Source: a virus
Reading direction: 5' to 3' (one strand)
DNA length: 30,002 nucleotides
Virus record (IMG/VR): IMGVR_UViG_3300044633_000775
Coordinates: 1 to 30,002 of that record
Positions 1,056 to 6,941 of the stretch are shown piece by piece. Both the position numbers and the translations under genes were made by a program. Below the pieces are notes generated by a model that did not search any database, was not told the DNA's origin, and saw only the letters and a list, made by a program, of their open reading frames with translations. How positions within the stretch are numbered: position 1 is the first letter of the stretch; every line of letters starts with the position of its first letter.

Positions 1056-1904
1056 ATGAAAATTCGAGAAATTATAACACCAGCAAATCTTTATGAAGCA
1101 CCTACATTTGGTCAATCACTCGATAGCGCATTAGCAGCTGGAGCAAGTCGTTTAAGGAATGCAACCGGAACAGGATCTGCACTTAGCACAGTTGATAGAT
1201 ACATGAACCTGTTAAAAAAATCAACATACAGTGTGATCTTTGTTAAACCAATTGCTGATTATTTTTTAAATATGGAACAATGGGAAAGTAAATTAAAAGA
1301 TAAACCAGATGAGCTTGAACAAAGAAGACAGATAGAACGTGGTTACTTAATTACCGAATTAGCAGCAATTGCTGGAACATTATCCATGGGCGAAGTTGGT
1401 ATATTTTTATTATCTGAGCTATTTGGATTTATACCTATAATAGGTCCATTAATTGGAAGATTATTTAAAGTCCTGGGGCCAGCTGTACAATCTGCTGCTA
1501 TGTTATGGTTATCATCAGATGCAGGAAGAATTGCTATCGCAAATTTATTAGCAAGTCCACTAATAAACATACACATGGAAGATATTCCTGGTTACGGATC
1601 AGATATAATTGAAATGTTTAAGAAAGGATTTGAATGGGCAAAACAACATGTAGAACAAGGTTATCATGATATAACTACTCCTGCAGACCCAAATGCAAAA
1701 CCATCTACAAACGATGCAGTTGATCCGTCTGCAACAGATCCAAACGATCCATGGACTATTAAACCGAAAACACCAACTGAACCTCCAAAGAAAAAACTCG
1801 ACCCATCTCAAATGAAACAAATTGTAGCATCAACAGATGATAGTGCGTATACTTCTTTAGATAGAGTTGTAAGAGGTCCAGATGGCCAATTGCACTTAAA
1901 GTAG
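1056..1904 (+). CDS. Candidate packaged internal virion protein with hydrophobic core
   Basis: I do not recognise a family. The start is supported by AAGGA five bases upstream. The N-terminus is short, with two early basic residues, and leads to NLYE|APTF at residue 14. L-x-E|A is the cleavage consensus of the T4 prohead protease, and T4 internal proteins carry such a leader (for example FIAE|A in IPIII). I infer that it could be packed into the prohead and cut by the gp21 encoded here. Residues about 95-170 form long hydrophobic helices rich in Gly, Ile and Leu (ELFGFIPIIGPLIGRLF), which suggests membrane interaction, perhaps on ejection. Residues about 205-250 are a Pro/Asp/Thr-rich linker, followed by a charged tail. 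It overlaps the convergent minus-strand ORF by 9 bp. A membrane protein expressed in the host is an alternative. Confidence 0.8.
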   Translation: MKIREIITPANLYEAPTFGQSLDSALAAGASRLRNATGTGSALSTVDRYMNLLKKSTYSVIFVKPIADYFLNMEQWESKLKDKPDELEQRRQIERGYLITELAAIAGTLSMGEVGIFLLSELFGFIPIIGPLIGRLFKVLGPAVQSAAMLWLSSDAGRIAIANLLASPLINIHMEDIPGYGSDIIEMFKKGFEWAKQHVEQGYHDITTPADPNAKPSTNDAVDPSATDPNDPWTIKPKTPTEPPKKKLDPSQMKQIVASTDDSAYTSLDRVVRGPDGQLHLK

Positions 1905-2111
1905 CGGCATCCTTGATACTTTAGTTAATTCAATGTTGTCTTTAACAATATCATACATAATATCGCGATCTTCTGATCCTAGAGTATACAGAAGATCGTT
2001 AATATTAACACCACCTCGCATATACCAACATAACCTATAAAGTTCAAGTTTAAATTGTTTAATTTCGTTTACAAGCCTAACTAGATAATTAACAATTTCG
2101 TTATATGACAT
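1896..2111 (-). CDS. Small tail/baseplate assembly protein, likely -1 frameshift extension of the gp26-like protein
   Basis: This 71-codon ORF begins five bases after the gp26-like stop and lacks a clear Shine-Dalgarno (TTAG only). The body is helical: an amphipathic N-terminal half, the CWYMRGGV motif near residue 28, then SEDRDIMYDIVKDNIELTK and a short SRMPLL tail. Small phage proteins with a YMRGG-type motif and a tail of this kind are, to my memory, common after gp26-type genes in environmental T4-like phages; I cannot assign it to T4 gp51 with confidence. The frame is open upstream through RSRLIR to the slippery U UUU UUC in the gp26-like gene, so the main product may be a fusion. The ATG could also be used by coupled reinitiation. 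Its 3' end overlaps the plus-strand gene at 1056-1904 by 9 bp. Confidence 0.8.
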   Translation of the reverse strand: MSYNEIVNYLVRLVNEIKQFKLELYRLCWYMRGGVNINDLLYTLGSEDRDIMYDIVKDNIELTKVSRMPLL

Positions 2112-2116
2112 TCTAA

Positions 2117-2941
2117 TTAGGCGGCTGCGAAAAAATTTGATTGATCTAAATCGATTGACAATTCAGCAGCGTGACCACATGACGAACATTTAACTTTAAC
2201 ATCTGGAACTCTCCAAACGTCTTTATTTTTATTAAATTGCTCGCGGATTTTATCAAATACATCTTTGTCGCAGTTTGTTAACCAATCGTAAATAAAATTA
2301 GGTTCGGTTACAACAACTGTTCCAGTATCAACTGACTCAACACTAGCAGAATAAATGTCGTTTTGTAATGCGCCTAAGTCTTTAAATAACTCCTCAATAA
2401 TCTTTTTCTGTTCATCAGCTGATTGAGCTGCAGCTGCTGATAAGTGTTGCTGTAAACGCATGTTACGAATTGAAAAATCAGTAGTTTGTTTATAAGTTAA
2501 CGGTTGTAATTTAATAATCAATCCATTATACTCAATAACACTATCATATTTGCACTGTGCAAAATGATTAACTACTGTAGTTAAGTCTACATCGTAGTCG
2601 TGTTCTGTTCCACATTTATCACATACATTTGTAATTTCTAAAATATTCCCAAATGTTGCAATACGAATTGCAACTAACAATAAATCAGTATCTAATGATG
2701 TTACTTCCCAACCGTTTTTAACATTTGGGCAACAGCTTTCAATAATCGATACTGTACTTTTCCCCGATACTAATGCATCAGGTGTTTTAACAATAATTTC
2801 ATCCATACCAGTCATGCTATAAATTGGCATGTGGGTTGCATCACCTGATAAACTTCCAAGTTTATTATAAATGCCGCCTGAAGGCAATGGAATATAAATT
2901 TTTGGTTGTCTGTAATATTGTTGTAAAGGATTTTGTGCCAT
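2117..2941 (-). CDS. 26: gp26-like baseplate hub/assembly protein with zinc ribbon (T4_baseplate family)
   Basis: The 274-residue length and the N-terminal pattern YYRQPKIYIPLPSGG match the gp26/T4_baseplate family of environmental T4-like phages; family proteins assist assembly of the baseplate hub. Two CxxC pairs, C107/C110 (CDKCG) and C252/C255 (CSSCG), each followed by an acidic beta strand, look like the two halves of a zinc ribbon that brackets a helical middle (about 150-200). The start is fixed by GGAG seven bases upstream, with a TATAAATA late box on the same strand 32 bases before the ATG. The C-terminus ends SNFFAAA; codons for FF form a U UUU UUC slippery site from which the -1 frame continues into the next ORF. 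It is divergent from the candidate tape-measure gene, a position that fits a tail-assembly role. Confidence 0.85.
   Translation of the reverse strand: MAQNPLQQYYRQPKIYIPLPSGGIYNKLGSLSGDATHMPIYSMTGMDEIIVKTPDALVSGKSTVSIIESCCPNVKNGWEVTSLDTDLLLVAIRIATFGNILEITNVCDKCGTEHDYDVDLTTVVNHFAQCKYDSVIEYNGLIIKLQPLTYKQTTDFSIRNMRLQQHLSAAAAQSADEQKKIIEELFKDLGALQNDIYSASVESVDTGTVVVTEPNFIYDWLTNCDKDVFDKIREQFNKNKDVWRVPDVKVKCSSCGHAAELSIDLDQSNFFAAA
2129..2135 (-). promoter_or_regulatory. Predicted -1 ribosomal frameshift site U UUU UUC
   Basis: On the minus strand the gp26-like frame reads AAT TTT TTC GCA GCC GCC TAA. T TTT TTC is a canonical X XXY YYZ heptamer, and both Phe codons can re-pair after a one-base slip. 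The -1 frame then reads CGC AGC CGC CTA ATT AGA ATG and joins the 71-codon ORF without a stop. The predicted fusion is 348 aa. I did not find an obvious downstream stimulatory hairpin. Confidence 0.6.
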
Positions 2942-3005: not shown

Positions 3006-6000
3006 ATGGCTCAAACAGAAACAGAACGACTTACTGAAGCGATAGAAGGACTTACTAGACAACTTAACGGTCGAGGCGGTAGTGGCGGAATTAGCTCTGC
3101 ACCTCGAACACCAATCTCGCAAGGTTCAAACTCTGGCTCAGGCGTAGTTGATAGATTTGTAGACATGGTAGGCGCAACAACCGGTGCTCTTAAAAATGTA
3201 TGGGAAGGTAGTGCAAAAGTAGCAGACGGATTTCATGTACTTACCGGTGCATTACAGAACAATGGGGGCTTGTTAGGTAAAACTTTAGGTGATTTAACCA
3301 AAAAAGTTGGCGACTCTGTACTTGATGCACATAAAAAGAATACTGAATTTGGTGAATACGGATCTAACTTTAATAATAATTTAGCTGACATGGATCGGTT
3401 AGTTAAAGGTGCAAGGTTAACACATGAAGAATACGGTGATATTCTTAAAAGAAATGCAACTGAACTAAATGGTTTAGGTTCAACTATGAACCGATCACAA
3501 GTAAACTTCTTAGAATTTACTAAAGGTTTACAAGAATCTGATGTAGTTGACAAATTAAAAGAATTTGGACTTCAAACTGAAGACGTTACTGAGGTAGCTA
3601 AAGCAGCAATGGGCAGTCAACGCGGTATTGACATGTCAGATATTGAATCTAAAAATGCTGCAATCGATTCTGCTATTCGAATGACCGCAGCAATGGATGA
3701 AACTACTCGAATAACTGGTTTAAGTAGGAAAGCGCAAGAAGATGATTTAAGAAAACGTAATGAAGATGCAGTTGTCCAAGTTGCATTATCAAGATTAGAC
3801 AAAGATGCTCGTAATAGATTTAATGAATCCATGCAAGACATGGCAGGCATGCCAGAAGCTGCTAAACGAGTATTCCAAGAAACGTTCACAGGCGGTTTGC
3901 GTACTAAAGAAGGCGCAGAATCTATGGCTGCAATGGGCGACGCTGGTCCAGAATTGCAAAAAGCTGCAGAAGCAATGAAATCTGCAAACACTCCAGAACA
4001 AAAAGCTGCAGCACAGATCCAAATGCAAAAAGCATTAGAAGCTGTTGATAGATGGCAAAATTCTGATGGCTTTAAAGATATGGTGCAATATGGCTCAGGC
4101 GGTGTTACACAACGAGCAATCGAAGCACAAACAAACAATAGAGAATTACCTCAGATTCAAACAAAAATTGATGAAGAGAGAAATAAAGGTAATAATATCG
4201 ACGAAGCTACTGCTAGACGAATGATTCGTGAAGAAGCTCATAATGCACAAAAAGGATTAGACGAAAAAGGTGAAAAATTTAAAGGTGCAGAGCTTGATAC
4301 TACACTAAACAAAGCCGATCGCACATTAAAAGACATGTCTGCAGGTGCATCTAAAATGTTTGGTGGGCTAGTTGACAGTGGTAATAAACTAATTGGAACT
4401 TTTGATGGTATTAATAATGCACTTAGACCTAGAACACAGGAACAAGCTACACCTGGTAACATGGCTAAGGAAATTACTGATGGATTTAAAGCATCACTTC
4501 CGTTATCTACTGCTCATCAAAAAGCTATTGAAGCACATAAAAACACTCCAACATTAACTCCAGAACAAACAGGTGCATCTCCAGTTAAGTATCATTTTGC
4601 TGACGGAACTCCTGACTTTGAAAAATTCTTATCAGGTGGTGGCGGATTTAAAGACATGTTTACGCACTTTGATCCAAAAGGTGAGCTTGCAGAACTTCAT
4701 GGTAACGAAATTGTAGCTAATGAAGATCAAATGAAACGGTTTGTACAGCAAATGATGCCACCTGGTGTAGCATCAGCTGATCAAAAACAAGCAAAAACAC
4801 CATCTCCAAGTACTACTGATATTAAAATTCCTACAACCACATCGGAAACAGTACCTGCTGCTCCGCAATTAACTGAATTAGGTAAAACATTTACAGATAT
4901 TAATACTGAAATGAAAAATGTTGCTAAACAGTTTACTGATATTGCTGAAAAATTTAAAAATATTACATTTGCTCCACAAGCAAAAGAAATGCACGAAACT
5001 GTTACTAAAGCAATTGAAAAAGCAACTCCTCAAACTAAGCCAGCCGAAGTAAAACCTGCTGAGCCACCTAAAGCAGAGGTTAAAGCCGAAGTAAAACCTG
5101 CTGAGCCACCTAAAGCAGAGGTTAAAGCTGAAGTAAAACCTGCTGAGCCACCTAAAGCAGAAGTAAAACCAGCTGAAAATCAATTTAAGTTTGTAGAACA
5201 ACAATCTATTGCACAATTAGGAGAACAATTTAACAAACTTATTAAACCAGCTACCCCTAAAGAACCACCAAAAATTACTACTCCTAATCTAGATGCAATT
5301 AAACTACCTAAGTCTCTAGAAGAATCGGCTATTACTGCATTACATCAGAATTTTGAACACCTAGGCAAAGCAGTATCAGGGTCATTAACTGAAGTTAAAA
5401 TAGCAAATGCTGAAAAACCTAAAACTACAATTGCTCCACTACCTAAACCTAAAGCTCCAGATGTTTCAAAGTTAGACGAAAGCTTAATAAACTTAGCTAA
5501 GTTTAAACAATCAATGAATTCTGGTGATATTTCTAAAATTGGTATGTCACAGATGGATCTTAGTGACTCAGGTAAAGCTGCTGAAGACAAATTAGGCCCA
5601 TCTGCTGCAAGAATGGCGTTACAAAAGAAAAGAGAAGCATTAGAAAACGCATCTTTTGACTACGAACAAATGAAAGCAGCTAATACTAAGCCAAATGCCG
5701 AAGCTGCAGAACGTTTAGCTAAGAAAAAAGAAGAAGTTGCAAAAATAGCACTCAGTTACGAAGATGATTTAATCAAAACTAAAGGTAAATTAAAACTTCA
5801 TGCTGAAGAAGAAGCTAAACATGCTGAAATTAAAAATAAAACCGCTCAAGAAGCTCATGCAAACCAAGTTGCGCAAGCATTAGAAGCCGAAAAGAAGTTT
5901 ATGAAGGAGCACGGTGCAAAAGAACCTGAAAAAACTGATAAATCTAAAGTAACTGATAAGTCTATTAAAGAAATGACAACTGCTGAGAAAGAAATGGTGA

Positions 6001-6941
6001 TTTATAGCAGTGGATCTAAAAAAGAACTACCGTCCACTGAAAGTATAAAACCTGATGTTAAACCTAAAGCATTTGAAGAATTAAGTAATCAGCTTGGAAG
6101 TTCTTTTAAATCGTTAGATGCTACTATTAAACCTGCAAGTATTCCAAAATTAGAAGATACTGCTATAAGGTATGAACCAACTAAAGAAGAACCTAAAGAA
6201 AAAGGGTTCTTTGATAGTATAACAGACACGTTTAGTGATGTAGGTTCGTCTATATCTGGATTATTTAAGAGTGATAACAAGCCATCATTTGCTAAAGGTA
6301 ATGTAAAATACGAAGAAATTTCACCAGAAGAACTAGCTGCTTCAGAAAAACGGTCTCAAGAAGGAATAGGTAAAATAGATCATAGTCCAGAAGCAACTGC
6401 AGCTCGTATTGCAGAGCTTAATAGACAACATTCAAGTTATTACAAACAAAAACCTAAAGTCGAAAGTGAAAAACCTGCAGAACCTGCTAATATTAACGAT
6501 AACTCTAAAGTTGAACCTCCTAAACCTGAACTTAAGAAGCCTGCAGAAACAAAAGAGCAAGCGCATATTAAAGAAATGTACAAAAAGTTTGGATTAGAAA
6601 CGTTTAATGACTATAATTCTAGAGTTTCAGCAGAAGTAAAACAATCGCATGCATCAATTAAAGACGTAAAATCAGATCATGCAGTATTAACAAAGAAAGA
6701 TGTAGAACCACCTAAACCTACACAACCTGTTAAACAACCAGAACCAGAAAAACCAGTTACGCCGCCACCTGCAACACCTGCACCGGTAGCACACGAGACA
6801 ACATTAAAAGATTTACATGATTCACTATTACAGTTAAATAAGACTATGATACAGATGGTTCAACATGCCGATACTATTAGCAGTAATAGTCATAAACAAG
6901 TTAGAGCAACTAAAAGTTTATCGGGTAATTTGTTGGGATAA
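3006..6941 (+). CDS. Candidate tail tape-measure protein, 1311 aa
   Basis: A tape-measure protein fills the tail tube and sets its length. The evidence is architectural. The protein is very long and mostly helical, with few aromatic residues. A Gly/Ser-rich start is followed by an amphipathic hydrophobic region at about 47-105. The stretch GELAELHGNEIVANED (about 560-575) resembles the 'LHGxE' element common near one end of tape-measure proteins. Residues about 620-830 and 1180-1260 are Pro/Lys/Glu-rich, with a perfect 14-residue repeat at about 681-722. Heptad-like Glu/Lys/Ala helices lie between, and the C-terminus (LLQLNKTMIQMVQH...KSLSGNLLG) is a coiled coil typical of long virion proteins of environmental T4-like phages. 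AGGA lies eight bases before the ATG. It is over twice the length of T4 gp29, so another long virion or ejected protein is possible. Confidence 0.65.
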   Translation: MAQTETERLTEAIEGLTRQLNGRGGSGGISSAPRTPISQGSNSGSGVVDRFVDMVGATTGALKNVWEGSAKVADGFHVLTGALQNNGGLLGKTLGDLTKKVGDSVLDAHKKNTEFGEYGSNFNNNLADMDRLVKGARLTHEEYGDILKRNATELNGLGSTMNRSQVNFLEFTKGLQESDVVDKLKEFGLQTEDVTEVAKAAMGSQRGIDMSDIESKNAAIDSAIRMTAAMDETTRITGLSRKAQEDDLRKRNEDAVVQVALSRLDKDARNRFNESMQDMAGMPEAAKRVFQETFTGGLRTKEGAESMAAMGDAGPELQKAAEAMKSANTPEQKAAAQIQMQKALEAVDRWQNSDGFKDMVQYGSGGVTQRAIEAQTNNRELPQIQTKIDEERNKGNNIDEATARRMIREEAHNAQKGLDEKGEKFKGAELDTTLNKADRTLKDMSAGASKMFGGLVDSGNKLIGTFDGINNALRPRTQEQATPGNMAKEITDGFKASLPLSTAHQKAIEAHKNTPTLTPEQTGASPVKYHFADGTPDFEKFLSGGGGFKDMFTHFDPKGELAELHGNEIVANEDQMKRFVQQMMPPGVASADQKQAKTPSPSTTDIKIPTTTSETVPAAPQLTELGKTFTDINTEMKNVAKQFTDIAEKFKNITFAPQAKEMHETVTKAIEKATPQTKPAEVKPAEPPKAEVKAEVKPAEPPKAEVKAEVKPAEPPKAEVKPAENQFKFVEQQSIAQLGEQFNKLIKPATPKEPPKITTPNLDAIKLPKSLEESAITALHQNFEHLGKAVSGSLTEVKIANAEKPKTTIAPLPKPKAPDVSKLDESLINLAKFKQSMNSGDISKIGMSQMDLSDSGKAAEDKLGPSAARMALQKKREALENASFDYEQMKAANTKPNAEAAERLAKKKEEVAKIALSYEDDLIKTKGKLKLHAEEEAKHAEIKNKTAQEAHANQVAQALEAEKKFMKEHGAKEPEKTDKSKVTDKSIKEMTTAEKEMVIYSSGSKKELPSTESIKPDVKPKAFEELSNQLGSSFKSLDATIKPASIPKLEDTAIRYEPTKEEPKEKGFFDSITDTFSDVGSSISGLFKSDNKPSFAKGNVKYEEISPEELAASEKRSQEGIGKIDHSPEATAARIAELNRQHSSYYKQKPKVESEKPAEPANINDNSKVEPPKPELKKPAETKEQAHIKEMYKKFGLETFNDYNSRVSAEVKQSHASIKDVKSDHAVLTKKDVEPPKPTQPVKQPEPEKPVTPPPATPAPVAHETTLKDLHDSLLQLNKTMIQMVQHADTISSNSHKQVRATKSLSGNLLG
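5046..5172 (+). repeat. 42-bp tandem repeat, three copies (last partial)
   Basis: Units begin at 5046, 5088 and 5130 and encode EVKPAEPPKAEVKA. The first two units differ from each other by one silent base (C5087/T5129), and the third breaks off after KAEVKPA. Near-identity of DNA as well as protein points to recent expansion by slippage or unequal recombination in the Pro-rich linker of the candidate tape measure. Confidence 0.9.

Follow-up and report, generated by a model that had tools for sequence, protein, structure and literature searches.

In phage lambda, genes G and T lie upstream of the tape-measure gene and on the same strand. PMC5009743 describes the roles of gpG and gpGT as those of a tape-measure chaperone and of a domain engaging tube assembly, and calls frameshifting between G and T a widely conserved feature 'except T4'. 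A table in PMC3004832 lists T4 gp26 and gp51 among the hub assembly chaperones, with gp51 as essential and absent from the particle; genetic work cited in the same review puts gp26 in the hub. The T4-like tail-assembly chaperones of Vladimirov, Gautam and Davidson (Vladimirov et al. 2022, Virology 566:9-15) are considered here through papers citing them. PMC12846349 calls polyT tracts known -1 signals in T4-like TAC-N genes, and according to PMC10885494 some T4-like phages have one short and one fused chaperone gene and no frameshifting. The polyT signal, and the short and long forms predicted for the locus described below, are common to it and these phages. The principle is therefore not new, and the statement of the sequence-only reading, that no frameshift had been described in a T4-type gp26 gene, is contradicted by PMC12846349. 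The latter also reports a conserved -1 frameshift at polyT in the chaperone of Adele (Vandenendeviridae), with the -1 frame open in all alleles; Adele differs from the present locus in its phage lineage and in having GTTTTT as the invariant motif.

The literature search, which fell short of most subscription journals, found no paper on a frameshifted tail-assembly chaperone in jumbo phages, nor any on a frameshift in a baseplate hub assembly catalyst; for frameshifting and gp51 in cyanophages it gave a single paper, which concerns a siphophage. What is added here may be a deep jumbo-phage clade, a putatively ancestral frameshift and a degenerate site in the Ackermannviridae, the novelty of the jumbo-phage part being uncertain.

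Slip site and reading frames

The window, i.e. the whole stretch of 30,002 nucleotides analysed, includes a gp26-like gene whose 3' end on the minus strand reads AAT TTT TTC GCA GCC GCC TAA (Table 1). This one gene very probably gives rise to a tail-assembly chaperone pair through a -1 slip at T TTT TTC, aided by a predicted hairpin, and the sequence evidence for a real programmed -1 frameshift is strong. After the slip the -1 frame continues through the six codons CGC AGC CGC CTA ATT AGA into the ATG of the 71-codon ORF and meets its first stop codon at 1898-1896, giving a predicted fusion of 348 aa beside the 274-aa zero-frame product. The sequence-only reading had pointed out the gene end, the heptamer with its phase, the six open codons before the ATG and both product lengths, and these details were found correct; its remark that the small ORF has no clear Shine-Dalgarno also agrees with the inspection by eye of the letters before the ATG (GCCGCCTAATTAGA), in which no such run was seen.

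Table 1. Features of the gp26-like locus in the window.
Feature	Position	Strand	Description
gp26-like gene	2117-2941	minus	274 aa, putative short chaperone form (TAC-N); PF12322, phrog_150
Slippery heptamer T TTT TTC	2135-2129	minus	in phase with the gp26-like gene, X XXY YYZ
Zero-frame stop TAA	2119-2117	minus	three codons past the heptamer
-1 frame, slip site to stop	1896-2135	minus	predicted C-terminal extension FFRSRLIRMSYNE..., 77 aa past the slip
71-codon ORF	1896-2111	minus	ATG 2111-2109 within the predicted hairpin, directly above its 11-bp stem
Predicted RNA hairpin	2075-2122	minus	candidate frameshift stimulator; outer stem 2122-2112 with 2085-2075
Divergent neighbour	3006-6941	plus	1311 aa, candidate tape-measure protein; synteny with relatives, RaK2 annotation

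The 274-aa protein matched PF12322 with 57.4 bits (E 2.2e-15), above the Pfam curated cut-off of 24.5, and phrog_150 'baseplate hub' with an E-value of 1.8e-18. It would be the equivalent of T4 gp26 and, by analogy, of lambda gpG. An identical protein is encoded in a 372-kb viral contig (L003) that has one PF12322 copy, and the window therefore very probably belongs to a jumbo-phage genome.

The predicted hairpin begins 6 nt past the heptamer and has a z-score of -2.93, and only 4 of 200 shuffled sequences folded as well. An upstream Shine-Dalgarno-like stimulator, looked for by eye, is absent in the window; several marine members have GAGGG upstream, where it also codes for a conserved E-G. 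A plus-strand ORF of 282 aa (1056-1904) converges on the -1 frame and overlaps its last 9 nt; it had no family match above cut-off in PHROGs or Pfam.

Conservation of the junction among relatives

A tblastn search with the window protein identified 62 phage records, each below 60% identity, and 19 of them, all annotated, were read. The heptamer and the open -1 frame were present in all 19, in the window itself and in two contigs that encode the identical protein; the slip site of RAS14 is T TTT TTT, with seven T. Conservation of the -1 peptide starts at the slip site with FFRxxLL (16 sequences), thus ahead of the ATG. The marine set was collected with S-CAM8 gp26 as query: of 88 confirmed T4-like loci 80 were covered and 79 of these read, L079 ending inside the gene, and 59 of the 79 are distinct at the junction. 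The slip site was T TTT TTC or T TTT TTA in 77 of the 79, and the -1 frame was open into one domain in every one, two frames running off the contig end. Two marine contigs that are alike at the junction, L105 and L106, have T TTT TTG. Heptamer and open -1 frame were also present in 15 of 15 jumbo contigs (L115-L129), some of which are the same phages as the annotated records, in four of four further contigs (L150-L153), and in S-CAM8, Bakedbeans, DLP6, AS-szw and S13. No relatives of Bakedbeans gp26 were found in the viral contigs.

The 141 genes formed 30 clusters at 60% identity, of which 29 were counted by their representatives. The one left out, L094, has a match length that is not a multiple of three, and its heptamer is present when read from its other end. 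T TTT TTN stood in phase at the slip position in 27 of the 29 clusters, 23 of these having T TTT TTC. The conservation of heptamer and open -1 frame, proposed as a check in the sequence-only reading, was borne out. Elsewhere in the representatives TTTTTT was in phase at only 2 of 6945 internal codons, and the frequency at the slip site thus exceeds chance. Also among internal FF dipeptides the coding NNT TTT TTY was rare (2 of 20). The product of codon-usage expectations over the clusters with the heptamer was about 1e-13, which, the clusters being related, serves as a guide and not as a probability.

The -1 frame is under purifying selection at the protein level. Changes were counted beyond the zero-frame stop in 16 disjoint close pairs of relatives, both jumbo and marine, drawn from 44 loci of which L090 was skipped; the window was left out, its relatives being identical or too distant. 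In the -1 frame 274 changes were synonymous and 133 nonsynonymous, a rate ratio of 0.11, whereas reading the same stretch in the two remaining frames gave ratios of 1.39 and 2.37.

The RNA downstream of the slip site was more structured than that upstream. In the 29 representatives the 60 nt starting 4 nt past the heptamer had a mean z-score of -1.72, with 12 below -2, while the means of six upstream control windows ranged from -0.48 to +0.13 (Wilcoxon p 1.4e-5 against the upstream mean). Two windows further downstream had means of -0.41 and -0.81, the latter 124 nt downstream. Several relatives have no downstream structure, z being above 0 in L010, L013, L046, L060 and others. One TTTTTT taken by itself would attract no notice in AT-rich DNA, and a heptamer with an open frame could come about by chance or be left by a decayed gene end, with no function; the conservation, the RNA structure and, most strongly, the selection on the -1 frame make such an origin hardly credible.

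The 71-codon ORF could also be a normal gene of its own, translated from its ATG, perhaps by coupling to the gp26 stop, with no fusion made. The ATG lies 5 nt past the TAA, and of the 27 annotated non-T4-type records read, 18 have a small CDS on the same strand directly following gp26 (frames checked in part), a joined gp26 CDS being present in none of the 27. However, the conserved FFRxxLL begins before the ATG, which itself is placed within the predicted hairpin and lacks a visible ribosome site, and the heptamer is retained between proteins less than 60% identical. Start codons in the -1 frame are likewise scarce: no ATG, GTG or TTG occurs within the first 12 post-slip codons in 20 of 29 clusters (including S-SCSM1 with its short frame), the frame of PA5oct has none at all, and those of RaK2, S-CAM8 and AS-szw none before codon 30. 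In T4 gp51, moreover, the domain is fused in frame. A separate gene is thus considered improbable, even though S-SCSM1 (L024) offers a case in its favour, with the domain outside the -1 frame and provided with an ATG. There (3170-3374) the heptamer is present, yet the -1 frame closes after a few codons and the gp51-like piece is found in the other frame, shifted downstream by some 11 nt, as judged by eye, relative to its place in the related L086. This could reflect either real uncoupling or a sequence error.

The heptamer was missing from CBA120, from 15 of 15 Ackermannviridae contigs and from Vibrio phage D510, which have ATT TTC or CTT TTC instead. In all these the -1 frame is still open and carries the C-terminal domain. 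The gp26 end in the Ackermannviridae (L132, which is CBA120, and L135-L149) reads GAR ATT TTC ATT TAA, and the 15 contigs share ATTTTCATTTAATTTTTGAAATTGATT without any change, although their proteins are down to 70% identical. This end may be an unusual -1 signal.

Polymerase slippage usually needs longer runs than six T. Slippage of RNA polymerase on the T6 run, producing a fusion mRNA, could nevertheless be favoured by six coding-strand T followed by a hairpin. For such slippage codon phase would not be needed, and the run would not have to be as uniform as it is: among the 27 clusters with T TTT TTN, exactly six T are present in 26 and seven in one (RAS14), and 23 close the run with C. The Ackermannviridae site, moreover, has four T only. 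Transcriptional slippage is accordingly given slightly less weight even than the separate gene, and a -1 slip of the ribosome is preferred.

T4 gp26 and gp51, copy number and descent

The predicted -1 extension occupies the place that the C-terminus has in T4 gp51. Residues 1-201 of T4 gp51 matched PF12322 (4e-52) and residues 147-246 matched phrog_634 'baseplate hub assembly catalyst' (1e-23), and the S-CAM8 -1 domain matched phrog_634 with 9e-30. The end-to-end alignment of gp51 was colinear through the slip site, with VF-KLLV...PAER opposite FF-RIAL...PWEK, and by this colinearity gp51 looks like an in-frame counterpart of the frameshift fusion and gp26 like the short form. The C-terminus of T4 gp26 (...GLKEFFELL) has FF at the position of the slip site, coded there as GAG TTC TTT GAG with no heptamer, and gene 25 overlaps its stop. 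T4 thus shares PF12322 with the window, and its gp51 carries an extension of the same family in frame, but it has two divergent genes and no heptamer. The suggestion of the sequence-only reading that a short and a C-terminally extended gp26-like protein form a pair comparable to G/GT is supported by the heptamer, the -1 frame, the RNA signal and the gp51 colinearity. No sequence or fold similarity between lambda gpG/gpGT and the window proteins was found with Pfam and Foldseek.

AlphaFold2 modelled the -1 domain as four helices (2-8, 11-39, 45-51 and 54-74; mean pLDDT 77, pTM 0.52) and the gp26-like protein as a mixed fold (mean pLDDT 80, pTM 0.77). Below E 0.001 Foldseek found nothing for the -1 domain in the viral library and nothing for the gp26-like model in the PDB, and the best match of the -1 domain among PDB sequences had an E-value of 0.12. 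The -1 domain of the window had no significant match in PHROGs or Pfam; among the -1 domains compared with PHROGs, 10 of 16 members matched phrog_18291, a family without assigned function. When nine genomes were searched with the phrog_634 profile, T4, S-CAM8 and AS-szw matched and five jumbo records and CBA120 did not. Aligning the jumbo with the marine/T4 C-terminal domain by hhalign gave 56%, and 16% in a local run, the local score being 22.0 against 13.4 for the best of 200 column shuffles. The jumbo and marine domains are therefore linked weakly by sequence, and mainly by position.

Copy number and heptamer were traded off against each other among the 35 records searched. Two PF12322 genes were present in five (T4, AM101, phiAS4 and two T4-type contigs), none of them with the heptamer, and one in 29, of which 27 have the heptamer, the exceptions being CBA120 and D510. 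SCTP-2 had no PF12322 match at the cut-off, but tblastn found its gene, with the heptamer. The heptamer was absent from all T4-type genes read, i.e. those of T4, AM101, phiAS4 and four of four T4-type contigs (of six). L113, a T4-type contig with two PF12322 copies, has the six-T run GAG TTT TTT AAA, one base out of slippery phase.

The maximum-likelihood tree of 28 proteins, which was rooted at the midpoint and includes some long branches, separated the jumbo clade from the T4-like clade with a support of 100/100. T4-type gp26 and gp51 grouped with AS-szw and S13, two Straboviridae that combine a single gene with the heptamer, at a support of 91/91, below the mark for strong support. The heptamer was found on both sides of the deepest split, in the giant-phage clade of RaK2, PA5oct, Atu_ph07, SCTP-2, RAS14 and the window as well as in T4-like phages. 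By parsimony on this tree, with its midpoint root and long branches, the frameshift would be ancestral and the duplication derived. The joint reading, namely that the entire PF12322 chaperone family inherited the -1 frameshift from its ancestor, that the Straboviridae exchanged it for the duplicated genes 26 and 51, T4 being a derived exception, and that the Ackermannviridae and the Vibrio phage keep the coupling at the non-heptameric ATTTTC or CTTTTC, has about an even chance of being right. If such coupling is true, it would be an unusual bacterial -1 signal.

Neighbouring gene and proposed roles of the two forms

In 14 of the 19 annotated relatives read, a large divergent gene lies at the place of the 1311-aa neighbour and is followed by a portal gene; in Munch the second gene of this pair is named capsid assembly protein. 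For the syntenic gene of RaK2 the record notes similarity to a tape-measure protein, and the 1311-aa protein itself had no significant family match in PHROGs or Pfam. It is a candidate for the tape-measure protein and thus for the client of the chaperones. The sequence-only reading had placed a candidate tape measure next door in divergent orientation; the position holds, and the protein stays a candidate, by the RaK2 annotation. The divergent orientation differs from that of lambda, and T4 gene 26 is likewise divergent from 51-27-28-29.

The slippage, as we infer its nature and efficiency, would be ribosomal: most ribosomes would pass T TTT TTC and terminate at TAA, so that the short form of 274 aa is made, and a minority, aided by the hairpin, would slip by -1 on the heptamer and make the 348-aa form with its extra helical domain. 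By analogy with lambda gpG/gpGT the proteins would act as chaperones also in the phage of the window. Both forms would bind the tape-measure protein, the short form as its bulk chaperone, and the rarer long form would use its extra domain to bring in tail-tube subunits or to initiate tube assembly. T4, AM101 and phiAS4 would make the two forms from paralogous genes, 26 for the short and 51 for the long, in-frame form.

In giant phages and marine T4-like phages, the small ORF that follows gp26 and is named 'hypothetical' or 'gp51' would then be the second half of a frameshifted chaperone. The results also suggest how a duplicated gene carrying a fused domain can take the place of frameshifting as a device for making two forms, and mutants of T4 genes 26 and 51 provide a ready genetic test of the role of each form. 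The PA5oct record marks the portal protein and the neighbour, and not gp26, as detected by ESI-MS/MS, and in the CBB record gp26 is named 'structural protein'. In the AM101 record (L027, MH165274.2), gp26, gp28 and gp51 are all labelled 'tape measure protein assembly chaperone'.
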